Shown: positions 5,011 through 10,400 of the stretch, piece by piece | Numbering within the stretch: position 1 is the stretch's first letter | Layout: each line of letters starts with the position of its first letter | Assembly: GCF_000313135.1 (NCBI RefSeq) | Contig: NW_004457445.1 | Coordinates: forward strand, 55,292 to 119,291 | Source of the DNA: Acanthamoeba castellanii str. Neff | Taxonomy: Eukaryota > Discosea > Longamoebia > Acanthamoebidae | Length of the DNA: 64,000 bases | Reading direction: 5' to 3' | Translations under genes and position numbers: made by a program | Notes under the pieces: generated by a model | Database searches by the model: none | The model's input: the letters and a program-made list of their open reading frames with translations, nothing else | Told to the model about the DNA's origin: nothing

Positions 5011-7382
5011 TACTTGCGAGAAGAATGGAGCACGAGGTAGTTGTAGTCATTCGAGTAGCTGGTCGCAAAGTGTGCCCCGGTGGCCGTCTCCACTGCGAGA
5101 TTGTTGATCTCGTGCAGGACCAACGTGACCGGGCTGGGCGGCTGCTCGCTGGGCTTCTCGTCGGTCTCCTGCAGCTCCATGTCCTCGGGCATCGTGTTCA
5201 GCAGAAGCTGCAGCTTGACCAGCGACACCTGGAGGCGGGCCTCCCGCTGGAAGCTGTTGTCGAGGTCCTCGCCCGTCCAGTCCAGCCCGCCCAGCAGGAT
5301 CTCGTTCCGGGCGGTCTCGATCTCCTCCAGCGCGCGGTCGGTCTTGGCGATGCTGGCCTCCACCTCGGCGCGCGTCTTGGGCAGCGCCTCGCCCTTCCCT
5401 TCGTGTCGACGGGCGGCCTTGCGCTCCTCCTCGTGCACGATGGGCAGGACCATGGCCATGGCCTCGAGCGGCAGCTTGCCCAGGCCCTTGGCAAACAGGC
5501 GACGGGCGTGGTGAAGATAGGTGGCCTTCTCCGAACGGAAGAACTTGTGCAGCAGGAACTGTTGGTTCGATGGATCGTCAAAGTAAGCGGCGGCGGCGAC
5601 GACTTCATAAAATGAAAGGAGGAGCTGTGTGCGGTACCACTGCGTAGGCTTGGATGGTGTAGCGCGCGCTGGCCGAGTAGAAGGCCGGGATGGGGTGCGG
5701 CTCAACAGTCGGCTGGCGGCCGAACCTACGCAAGTGAGGGTTGGGGCATCAGCATGCACCACGACACGGCGCACTTGTGCAGTCGTACAACGAGAGGGGA
5801 CTGTGGGAGAGAAAGAAGGAGGACCCGTACCTCGGCTGCGGCTGATTGGCCTTCGCGTCCTGCTTAGCTTGCCACTCCTTCCTGCTCACCAGGAGGCTCT
5901 TGACGTAGGCCAGCGTCTTGTCTGTGACCTGCTGTTCGAACTGGAACCGGACCTTCTCGACCAGGAACATGGCGTGCGCCGCGTGCAGCTGAAAACAAAC
6001 ACCACCCACCACCAGGCAGGGCCACGTCAGCGTCAAATAATAATAAAGGCGACGCAGCGAGGATTGGGTGGCGTACGCTGACGAAGGGCCAAGATGGATT
6101 TTCCTTGCTGGCGGAATCGCTGTAATCGTAGGGGCTGGACTTAGTGCCGGGCCAGAAGCCAAAGCCGCCGTCGTTGTTCTGCATCTTGAGCAGCTTCCGG
6201 GCGTCCTTGGCCACCTTCTTCAGCAGCTCGCGCTGGTTGACGCCAGCGAACACATCGCGGAAGGCCTGGAGCAGCGGCTCGAACACCAGGCTGCTGATGA
6301 TACGAGACGAGATCTGCTCGCTGCATTCGTACTCGTAGGAGTAGAGGTAGTGGAAGGCGTCGGAGAGCGAGGTGAGCATGGTCGACGACGCCGTAACCTC
6401 GAGCCCACCGAAGCGATCGTGGACGTTGGCCGGCGGCTTGATCAGCTGTACCAGTTCCCTGCCCTCCAGCTCGCCTACGAGTGGAATGGAAGGAATGTTA
6501 GTATTGTGCGAATTCCAGCCAGGACTGCTTGTTGTGTGACGGGTACCGCAGGTGGCAAAGGTCTCGACCACGGCCGGCTCCTTGAGGGCGATAACGATCC
6601 GAGCCGCGTCGTTCTCGGCTCCGAACACGCTCTGGCGCCCGGTCATGGCCACGGCCTCCACCGTCGCCTCCTTCCCCACGACCGACGCCGCGATCGGGAA
6701 CAGCACCTCGGCCCTTAAATTGCCTTAAGTGAGCGAAGCGGCTTGCGATGAAGAGTGAGCAACGAGTGGCGGCTTTTGCACCTGTTGTTGGCTTCGACTC
6801 GCACGCACTTGCCGTGGGCGCCGAGGATCTCGAGATTGTGCACACGCAGAGCCACCCGCACGTCCACCGGCTCGTCGGTCACGTTGTGCACCACAAACGA
6901 TTGCGAGTACTGCGGCGACACAAGCCATAGGCCATCAGCCCCACCTGCTCCGTCCGCCCCAAGCGGCCACAACCTCAAGGAGCGTACCTTGTCGCCCAAA
7001 GAAAGGAAGCGGGGAGGAGAGGGGCGCAGCATGATGGGCAGCCGGGCCGTGATCGCCGACTCGGCGACGCCGAAACGATTGTCGTGCACAGCGATGGCGA
7101 TAATGCGATACCTGCCGAGAAACACAACACACCAATCGGACAACATGAGCGAGCGCCTACTCAGGCGACGTGGCATTAACAGATCAGAATAACGTACCGG
7201 GTGAGGTTGTCGGGCAGCGCGAAGGAGACGCGGACGCGCCCAGTGTCGCTGGGGACCAGATCGGGACGGAACACCGCCAGCGGGCGGAAGTCCTCTCGCT
7301 TATAGACCGCTCGCGGCATCATCGAGGGATCACCACCGCCCCTGCTCGTGTGGCGAGATGAGGTGAGTGCGGCACATAAGGC

Positions 7383-7439
<57 letters not shown>

Positions 7440-10400
7440 CCACGAACCGCAGCCTGAGCACGAGGTGGAGCGTGCTCTCCGGTTGGATGTTGTAGTCGCC
7501 GAGCGTGCAGCCGTCCTCGAGCTGCTTGCCAGCGAAGATGATGCGCTGCTGGTCGGGCGGGATGCCCTCCATGTCCTGGATGACGTTCTTCAGATCCTCC
7601 AGGGTAAACCACGACGCCACCCTTACATCACAGATGTCGCACAATTACGGCTATGTCAGCGCACACCGCACAAGTTCCACCCCACCGCAGTTAACTGCTG
7701 GATGACATGCGGTGATGTGGTACCCGATGGTCAGGGTCTTTCCGGTGAGTGTCTTCACGAAAATGTCGAAGGTGACCATCGAGCCTTTCACCACCGAGCG
7801 AGACGACACCATCTGCTCTCGCACAGAAGACCAATGAAAGAAGGAACGGTCAGTTGGGCACAGGTGACATTGGAAAAAAACAAGGCGGGTTATGTACCTT
7901 GAAACACTTGTCCCTGTTCTGGTAGAAGGAGGCGATGGGGTCCTTGACCTTGTAGTCGCTGAGGAACAGCACGCTCTCGTCCACCGCGTAGAAGGTGCAC
8001 TCGCAGCCCAGGTTGCCGCCGACCGGAGCGCCGGCGTGGTCGGTGATCATCACATCGACCGTTGCATTCGCCCTAGAGGGGGGGGGCGAAGACAGAAGGG
8101 TCAGAGAGGGCCGACCGATGCCACGAACAGACCAAAGACGCCCATGGGCGCACGCACCCAGGCTTATAGACGGTGGCGCTGGGCGTGATCTTGAGGCCCA
8201 GTCTGGCCTCCGCGGAGGAGACGCTCAGGAACAGGCTCGCTGGGGTGATATACGTAACGGAGGAGTCCTGATTGGGCACCAGGTTGACTTCCACGTGCAC
8301 GCCTGCGGGCAATTACAAACACATAAAAAGAGGGGGATTTAAGGGGGCTTCAGGAGGGGCAGGTGGGTGCAGCCCAGACAAAGCGCTTACCGGGGTAGGA
8401 CTCGGGGCCGAGAGGCACGGAGATTATCTGGGCCGGCGCGGTGATGGTGACGCGGGACACTTCGATCTTCCCGTGCTTGGCCACGCTGACGAGGCCTTCA
8501 GCAGGCCAGGTCGGCGAATGCACCAACACTCGCGCCGTTTCGCCTTTGTGGGGGGGGGCGTAATTTCGATTAGTGTTCTGATCGGCAGCAGCGACAGGCC
8601 TTGATAGGGGGCACAATGTACCTGGGCTGTATTCCTCCTTGTCGGCCAGCAGCTTGATCTTTTTCTCGGTCGACACCTTGGAGCCGGCGGAGGAGTGCGG
8701 GAAGACGATCCTGTTGAGGCCGGCGAATGCAAAGACGTTGATCTCCGTGTAGTTGGGACGTCCCTGCTCGTCCTCCTGTTGTGTGTTACATGCGCCAGTG
8801 AGCTCGGCCCGAGCGTCGTCGGTTAAAGAAGGCAAAGTGGGCAAAGTACGATGGAAGCGCTGATCAGAACGCGATCGCCTTCGAGCCACGGGCCGAAGTT
8901 GACCTCGAACCCCGACTTGCGCTCTTCATCATCAAACTGCAAGGTGACGCTCTGTTTCAGCTTTTGGCAAGTCTTTTGCTTCCACTCGAGCGTCTCGCCA
9001 TCCTTCACCCTGCATATTTTTTTAAACCACTCACAATACCAATTAGCACCGCACACACGCACTACCGCACGTTGCAAAAGAAAACGCACCACTTCTTTTC
9101 AACAGCCTTGAGGTTGACCGTCACGCCCTGCTTACGCTCGCCGTCGATGTCGGTTACGGTCACGAAACAGCGGATGGCCTCGCCGGGTCCGTTGAGGACC
9201 ATCGCGGCAGGCCGCAGGCCGACGTAGAGCGAGGAGGGGTGCAGCAAGATCTTTGAGTCTTTCGATAGCGACTGGCGGTTGACGTCCTTGAGGGTGGCAA
9301 CGGCTGTGAGCGACATCGGCGCGGGCGTTTTGCTCTCCTGCTTGCCGGTGATCCTGTTTGTTGGGGGAAACAAGCGGCGTGAGAATAGACGAGCAACAGA
9401 ACTCGAGGTTGGGGCAACACGCACTTGATTTGGTGAGTGCCATCACGAGCCGTGGAGCCCTTGTGCTGCCCCCCAGAACGAGGGAAGCCGGCGCTGGCAT
9501 TGGAGTTGAATGTGAAGCCCTCCGTGTTCGGCGGCCGATAGGAGGCCGGCGCCCAACCAAGGCTCCACTCCACCTCAGCTCCAGGCAGCGCACCACCAGT
9601 GAAGTACCTGGTGTACCAGGTGGTGTTTGTCAGCCACTCGACGAAAAATGAAAATCGAAAGCTGGAAGATGTGCGCACTTGGCCTCGGCTTGTACGTTGA
9701 GCGGGTCCCCACAGATGTGCGGGCCGGCACCCAGCACCTTGGTGGCCAGCTCAAACTCGGGATTTCTGTGTGTGTGGCCACAGCAGGCAGTGTTGAGGAT
9801 TTGGGGGGGGACAGAAGTGAGCGCCAGTTTGGTCGTACCTGAAGTGCTGAATGTCGACGTCGAGTTGGTGCTCAACGGTGAGGGTACGTCCAGACTGTGA
9901 CAGGGTGCGCAGGAGAGTCGGAGAGAAGGCATTGGCGCTCTGTCATGACAGGGAACGATGAGAATTCGAAGATGGAGACAAGACCACAGACGGGCGAAGG
10001 ACGGACCACTTGGGTGAACTTGAGCTTCGCCACGCCGAGCCTAAAGTCCTCCGGAATCTCCCACTCCAGGGAAAACGACCCCTGGTCCTCGTCGATCCTC
10101 GTCGAATGCATCGACACGTTTTGGTAGTGCGAATTGGCGATCGTCATCACCACCATTCCTGTTCATTGCAATGACCAATCAGCACATTGATAGTTATTCA
10201 AACACGCACCAGCACGCTCACGACATACGACACGATATGACTCGACACGAGACACAACGTATGGGTGCGCATACCGCCGATTTTCTTGAGGTCGCCGTTC
10301 TTCTTGAGCTTGCGAACCCAGCCCTTGACATGAACCACTTCGCCGGGGCGGTAGAGTCCCCGTTCCGAGATGACGTGGTACACCATGTCCTTCTCCCTCT

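Follow-up and report, generated by a model that had tools for sequence, protein, structure and literature searches.

The stretch of DNA analysed here (the window) comprises 64,000 nucleotides from Acanthamoeba castellanii str. Neff, and its minus strand carries a long, intron-rich gene for an alpha-2-macroglobulin (A2M) in which the bait slot is filled by a ubiquitin domain in place of a protease bait. Manual splicing, guided by open frames and splice signals, gives 41 exons between positions 13827 and 3435 that encode 2363 amino acids without an internal stop. The coding region and its bait slot are arranged as follows, in positions of the window:

3435..13827, minus strand: ubiquitin-A2M gene, whole coding region (hand-spliced model, recomputed from coordinates; Neff protein P0001)
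7771..7960, minus strand: N-side bait linker, amino acids 1353-1387, ending in SSRSVVKGSMVT and containing intron 7897-7813 (spliced model)
7335..7770, minus strand: bait ubiquitin, residues 1-76 (amino acids 1388-1463), with LRLRGG tail and introns 7723-7622 and 7447-7342 (splicing, alignment, Pfam)
7287..7334, minus strand: C-side bait linker GDPSMMPRAVYKREDF, with the predicted cut immediately ahead of its first Gly (bases 7335/7334)

The 40 introns measure 46-116 bases each and begin and end with GT...AG in all but intron 6 (12253-12208, 46 bases), where the hand model uses a GC donor and P0001, the separately made Neff gene model, points to a different donor and four additional residues. 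This is the one doubtful junction, and it is distant from the bait ubiquitin. Between the two models there are five gene-model differences and zero residue substitutions; none of the five falls in the ubiquitin exons, whose junctions are the same in both. Two segments of 16 and 25 amino acids in the hand model are apparently missing from P0001. They are probably real exons because their inclusion raises the Pfam scores of A2M_BRD from 28.6 to 51.1 bits and of bMG10 from 75.2 to 111.4 bits. The initial annotation, which was made from the letters alone, had reported a complete ubiquitin at 7335..7770, and splicing re-derives exactly this span, with both introns at the expected bases and the second splitting the Arg74 codon. 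The spliced tail reads LRLRGG and then GDPSMMPR within a gapless 76-residue domain, and the patch residues Leu8, Ile44, His68 and Val70 are present in the alignment, all as described there. That account of the gene was sound for the bait ubiquitin and missed the N-terminal ubiquitin-like domain, the lack of a signal-like stretch, and the relatives.

With its 76 residues, Ile44 patch and LRLRGG tail, the insert is a ubiquitin by sequence, and 57 of its 76 residues are identical to those of human ubiquitin without a gap. The Pfam ubiquitin model scores 132.1 bits across two domains of the protein (cut-off 25.4), of which the better (1390-1461) sits between A2M_BRD (1204-1352) and A2M (1484-1571). 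The domain is no chance resemblance. The bait slot was defined by pattern, from VDExVL to PDNLTRYR, which matched 117 of 120 listed proteins (P0002, P0005 and P0112 were unmatched). By this definition the slot is 153, 154 and 156 amino acids long in the three protist proteins that share the design, compared with 94-190 (median 122.5) for the 114 other relatives listed. Domain order and slot length together support the bait position that had been proposed for the ubiquitin. Twelve other slots were inspected by eye, and eleven of them look unstructured, being rich in Ala, Pro and Gly or in charged residues. The twelfth, in P0006 from a Gemmatimonadetes bacterium (amino acids 1186-1382), holds a different folded domain, CarboxypepD_reg (carboxypeptidase-regulatory-like), and sets a precedent for folded domains in the bait slot of an A2M. 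Given the position and length of the slot, the ordinary baits of the relatives and a second A2M of the same genome that lacks ubiquitin, ubiquitin has taken the place of a bait.

Relatives were collected in three protein searches, each represented by its best 120 of 668, 1308 and 1249 matches, for a total of 343 distinct proteins. The searches scored 7993, 8000 and 7985 candidates sharing most words, and more relatives may exist. Among the 343, 314 have CxEQ-type and ExMY patterns, 27 match ubiquitin (E <=1e-5), three do both and five do neither. Among the matches listed, the combination of A2M and internal ubiquitin is thus found, in the same architecture, only in P0001 of A. castellanii Neff, in P0004 of Balamuthia mandrillaris and in P0003, a Trinity transcript open reading frame from EukProt. 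Wherever an organism is named for the other listed A2M rows, it is a bacterium. Overall identity to the window protein is 37% for P0003 and 36% for P0004. Outside the bait ubiquitin, identity by segment is 19-60% for the three pairs (19-34% for the linkers on either side of the bait ubiquitin); inside it, with the segment set one residue late, it is 75-79% (aligned counts 56, 59 and 58 of 76). In a FastTree phylogeny built with the ubiquitin domains excised (61 sequences sampled at intervals from the 343, 1978 columns, one method, one run), the window protein, P0003 and P0004 form one clade with support 1.0 and a stem of 0.62. Acanthamoeba and Balamuthia are both members of Centramoebida. The simplest reading of these sequences is a single ubiquitin insertion before the three lineages split. 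In the MAFFT alignment, bacterial residues occupy 0.56 of the ubiquitin columns, which can be read as bait residues aligned opposite the insert.

These relatives also bear on whether the arrangement is an artefact, produced by genes merged in prediction, or a neutral curiosity left by a recent and functionless polyubiquitin insertion. Canonical ubiquitin repeats are abundant in the genome and are possible donors, and the Balamuthia record is itself a prediction, misnamed 'Polyubiquitin'. However, the frame is continuous across codon-splitting introns, and the design recurs in sequences only 36-37% identical to the Neff protein, of which one stems from assembled transcripts. Moreover, the substitutions E18A, P19S, S20W and V26L relative to human ubiquitin are common to Acanthamoeba and Balamuthia, and because these non-human residues are shared, the bait ubiquitin is not a fresh copy. 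An assembly error joining two genes, named in the initial annotation as a possible refutation, is ruled out by the presence of the design in the Neff gene model, in Balamuthia and in the transcript-derived protein. A recent copy of polyubiquitin is likewise ruled out by the shared non-human residues and by an identity of only 57/76 to the human protein. An artefact or neutral origin is thus largely refuted and highly improbable. The name 'Polyubiquitin' was also rejected for the Balamuthia record, in which the two ubiquitin-family domains lie ~1430 residues apart in an A2M body and are not head-to-tail repeats.

Conservation within the bait ubiquitin is uneven. The three protist domains match human ubiquitin at 57, 67 and 61 of 76 positions, all without gaps, and 54 sites equal the human residue in all three. 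The invariant residues include L8, R42, I44, G47, Q49, H68, V70 and the whole stretch L71-G76, and the residue after Gly76 is Gly in every case. The 22 variable sites comprise 2 of the 28 positions in residues 34-50 and 66-76 and 20 of the 48 elsewhere (Fisher p 0.0014, an indicative value, as the two zones are hand-picked and ubiquitin in general is conserved in the less variable one). Among the lysines, K63 is lost in all three proteins, K29 and K33 in two each and K48 in one (Balamuthia); K6, K11 and K27 are kept throughout. The chain-forming lysines K48 and K63 of mature ubiquitin are consequently not both available. The tail had been described as one of the kind cut by deubiquitinases, and its conservation in three diverged sequences agrees with this. 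A selected cut at Gly76, either conditional or at birth, is a probable reading of the sequences.

It could instead be that the ubiquitin is never cut and serves as a folded spacer or a receptor-binding site in an exposed loop, with the two glycines incidental or shielded. The conserved Ile44 patch would suit such a docking role, other genes of the genome have internal ubiquitin-like domains, some of them with LRLRGG, and the slot of P0006 shows that folded inserts are tolerated. Docking has no need of R74-G75-G76, yet all three proteins keep these residues, and all three have lost the GG from their N-terminal ubiquitin-like domain. We regard an uncut docking module as improbable.

The A2M body that surrounds the bait slot provides the following features:

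7961..8658, minus strand: A2M_BRD (bait-region domain), PF07703, amino acids 1204-1352, 51.1 bits, with introns (Pfam and exon table)
6847..7274, minus strand: A2M domain, PF00207, amino acids 1484-1571, 60 bits, with introns (Pfam)
6314..6325, minus strand: thioester motif CSEQ, Cys1699-Gln1702, aligned to CLEQ of E. coli YfhM
3480..4207, minus strand: bMG10 (C-terminal MG domain), PF17973, amino acids 2193-2349, 111.4 bits, with introns (Pfam and exon table; one exon also found separately)
3689..3700, minus strand: KDDR, counterpart of the RDDR motif of E. coli A2M (motif from PMC4498604)
3489..3500, minus strand: EEMY, counterpart of the EXMY motif (motif from PMC4498604)

The Pfam families over their cut-offs are the two ubiquitin stretches and, in order, MG2 (39.6 bits), A2M_BRD, A2M and bMG10; bMG3, bMG5 and Big_5 remain under the cut-off. 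A scan of NCBIfam gave a single match, Rad23, also under cut-off. The part of the protein after the bait matches solved structures of E. coli YfhM and Salmonella A2M only, with YECSEQ aligned to YGCLEQ (E up to 0.1). Of the motifs named for E. coli A2M, which are CLEQ, RDDR and EXMY (PMC4498604), CxEQ is present in all three protists, its C, E and Q being invariant in 46 of 46 aligned rows (45 proteins, P0003 twice), and the EXMY motif of the C-terminal MG domain is EEMY in all three. Two features of bacterial-type A2Ms are lacking. The slot holds ubiquitin and short linkers rather than a largely disordered, broadly cleavable bait, and a simple hydropathy scan gave no indication of export by signal peptide or lipoprotein in the three protists. 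The protein is thus an A2M by its domains and thioester motif that departs from its bacterial relatives in these two respects, and because its bait slot holds a ubiquitin domain it is better described as a variant than as an ordinary bacterial-type A2M.

The N-terminal region accounts for the second ubiquitin-family domain:

13354..13767, minus strand: N-terminal ubiquitin-like domain, amino acids 21-95, tail LRLAES, without GG, two introns (alignment; PF00240)
12934..13353, minus strand: acidic linker, amino acids 96-235, joining the ubiquitin-like domain to the A2M body (spliced model)

The protein starts with MEKDTSAATAPVAKKK, which is followed by the ubiquitin-like domain (LSLSVKTLTGK...TLHLVLRLAES) and the acidic linker; the latter is 20-26% identical between the protists. 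PF00240 identifies two stretches each in the window protein, P0001, P0003 and P0004. In the three proteins the N-terminal domain ends in LRLAES, LRLSSD and LRLRNA, and by eye its patch residues are kept. No signal- or anchor-like stretch was found by the hydropathy scan in the first 60 residues of the three protist proteins, where the best 12-residue mean was 0.10 in P0001, 0.47 in P0003 and 0.21 in P0004. By the same measure, the 114 other listed relatives have a median of 2.69, and 100 of them reach at least 1.8. Because a hydrophobic N-terminal stretch is lacking, we infer that the ubiquitin-A2M protein is intracellular.

Bait cutting in E. coli A2M sets loose a disordered segment, breaks the contacts that keep the protein inactive and uncovers its thioester (PMC4498604). 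When part of the bait of this protein was exchanged, covalent capture was retargeted to the matching protease (PMC9918453). For the protist proteins, we tentatively favour a thioester trap inside the cell, with a bait specific to deubiquitinases, that would fire conditionally when armed, a reading in which our confidence falls somewhat short of even. Deubiquitinases or other LxGG-cutting enzymes would read the folded ubiquitin together with its tail and sever the bond that joins Gly76 to the Gly after it. This would release the short segment on the C side of the bait, which would dislodge the thioester domain from its place on the C-terminal MG domain in the manner put forward for E. coli A2M, after which the exposed Cys-Gln thioester would bond covalently to the cutting enzyme or to a neighbour. 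The N-terminal ubiquitin-like domain, which has a hydrophobic patch and no GG, might then deliver whatever has been caught to the proteasome or another ubiquitin receptor, although delivery by this domain is doubtful. Equally speculative, and on balance unlikely, is the full sequence of events in which a deubiquitinase springs the covalent trap, the adduct is passed to the proteasome and the freed N-terminal LRLRGG becomes chargeable by E1. If it were true, one protein would combine two covalent-attachment chemistries and could act as an amoebal immune or quality-control device that monitors deubiquitinase activity. The further idea in the initial annotation, that deubiquitinases injected by bacteria are the target, finds no evidence here and is speculation. 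Deubiquitinase candidates of Simkania are expressed in Acanthamoeba (PMC10643670), but nothing in the present data connects them with the ubiquitin-A2M protein.

The principal rival to an armed trap is that host deubiquitinases act on the chain while it is still being made and cut it after Gly76, so that the working protein consists of two chains. One would be an N-terminal chain, with the ubiquitin-like and MG domains, that ends in a free and possibly conjugatable LRLRGG, and the other a C-terminal chain that starts with Gly and contains the thioester. R42 and R72 of ubiquitin matter for its activation by E1, and the conservation of R42 and of the whole 71-76 tail would suit such a product. 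Co-translational cutting by the host had been offered as an alternative in the initial annotation, and it has a strong precedent in engineered protein-ubiquitin-protein fusions, which are cut after the last ubiquitin residue as they are made and leave the upstream protein with a C-terminal ubiquitin (PMC3692480). Natural ubiquitin-ribosomal fusions are also cut very fast, and their precursors are undetected in wild-type yeast (PMC6721733). A trap that is cut before synthesis reaches its thioester domain, however, would have little reason to keep CxEQ and EXMY, yet all three proteins keep both. For this reason, which is an indirect one, the armed form is preferred, and cutting at birth is ranked below it as possible but rather unlikely.

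Several points weigh against a conditional trap. Its thioester is assumed to form and survive in the cytosol. In protein-ubiquitin-X fusions, co-translational cutting by host deubiquitinases is described with proline at X as the sole exception named (PMC3692480), and because X is Gly in all three protist proteins, the armed state might never exist. The RDDR-type motif is present in only two of the three, as KDDR in the window protein and RDDR in P0004, and reads KETG in P0003. The thioester region (amino acids 1650-2050) is 37% identical per protist pair, which is no better than the whole proteins, and the design is known from three sequences only among the matches listed. Retention of the GG also has counterparts elsewhere. 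RGG is found in 4 of 19 other diverged ubiquitin-like rows of this genome, a control drawn from 20 regions fetched of 66 matches (25 rows less L009, two of L015 and two of L016, which are canonical, and one of L027, which has no tail) and in which a tail split by an intron would count as lost. It is likewise found in 17 of 127 rows of 53-68/76 identity from other large ubiquitin-bearing proteins, rows that are repeats of few proteins and not independent. A kept GG is thus uncommon without being unique, and as proof of cutting on its own it is weakened by both controls. The stronger argument is the contrast within the same proteins, in which the GG is present in the bait ubiquitin of all three and in the N-terminal domain of none.

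A whole-genome search with P0001 (20 scored candidates, 51 matches) returned this gene and ordinary ubiquitin copies and no second ubiquitin-A2M. A translated ubiquitin search (E up to 10) of L001, L003, L004, L007 and the window found nothing beyond this gene's two domains and a single chance match within the window. Neither of the two other A2M loci of the genome shows a ubiquitin. The second bacterial-type A2M of the genome lies at C78, ~301.5-312.5 kb, with the same bait flanks and a thioester-type sequence that reads YECSE and, after an intron, QISSK. By eye its bait stretch is acidic, rich in Ser, Ala and Pro and in Lys, and without ubiquitin. In the same area (~301.5-314.5 kb; L004, L007, L008), a SPRY-like stretch (PF00622) lies upstream of the A2M on the same strand, with 33.8 bits (cut-off 26.3) on a peptide joined by eye from two exons; it may be part of the same gene. 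A third A2M-like locus, C94:596000-605500 (L003), has a PF00207 exon over the cut-off, a weak MG2 match (E 0.035), an upstream SPRY match of 27.3 bits (cut-off 26.3) and a very charged segment, rich in Glu, Lys and Met, at a possible bait position. All three A2M loci of the genome may have N-terminal domains of an intracellular type. Separately, C44:963000-968500 and C44:1139500-1145000 (L029 and L030) hold two similar genes with internal ubiquitin-like domains that end in LRLRGG followed by TPPARHA, and with a RING-like cysteine pattern further on, as judged by eye.

The closest known systems are the bacterial A2Ms, which include E. coli YfhM/ECAM (PDB 4rtd, 5a42, 4ziq), Salmonella A2M (4u48) and the Big_5-containing A2Ms of Acidobacteria, Chloroflexi, Myxococcota, Gemmatimonadetes and others. 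The protist protein resembles P0006 in domain order (Big_5, bMG3, MG2, A2M_BRD, A2M, bMG10), with Big_5 and bMG3 under cut-off here. It also shares the CxEQ thioester and EXMY with bacterial A2Ms. To nearly all bacterial-type rows listed it is 26-31% identical, in alignments that span roughly one half to three quarters of the query. In contrast to them, it has a ubiquitin bait, 41 exons, and a ubiquitin-like domain and acidic linker where they have an exported-looking N-terminus. The C78 A2M of the same genome belongs to the same family and shares the thioester-type sequence and bait flanks but not the ubiquitin. Fusions of the ubiquitin reference technique (PMC3692480) also place ubiquitin between two proteins, with a non-proline next residue and a predicted cut after Gly76; they are engineered from unrelated reporter halves, whereas here the halves are two parts of one A2M. 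Polyubiquitin and the ubiquitin-ribosomal fusions (eS31, eL40) similarly have LRLRGG followed by a non-proline residue within one polypeptide, but their ubiquitin stands at the N-terminus or in repeats and serves as a source of free ubiquitin, unlike the single diverged internal copy of the A2M. A2Mcap, an engineered E. coli A2M, shows that a bait change can retarget covalent capture to a chosen protease; it relies on short peptide sites, and the word ubiquitin is absent from the main text of its report (PMC9918453).

No paper on an A2M with a ubiquitin bait was found among the open-access papers searched. The initial statement that no such protein had been described stands to this extent, although the sequences themselves are public under uninformative or wrong names (the Neff record is called 'Alpha2-macroglobulin domain containing protein'). 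As far as the cited A2M papers describe them, A2M traps act extracellularly or in the periplasm of bacteria and have largely disordered baits. From its sequence, the protist protein seems to be a bacterial-type trap that was moved inside a eukaryotic cell and given a folded bait read by one enzyme class. Its presence in three lineages suggests a trap or switch run by ubiquitin-cutting enzymes. If the bait works in this way, the protein would be nature's equivalent of the engineered A2M capture tools and would let a cell detect or seize deubiquitinases. If it is instead cut at birth, it would represent a natural protein-ubiquitin-protein design and a two-chain thioester protein.

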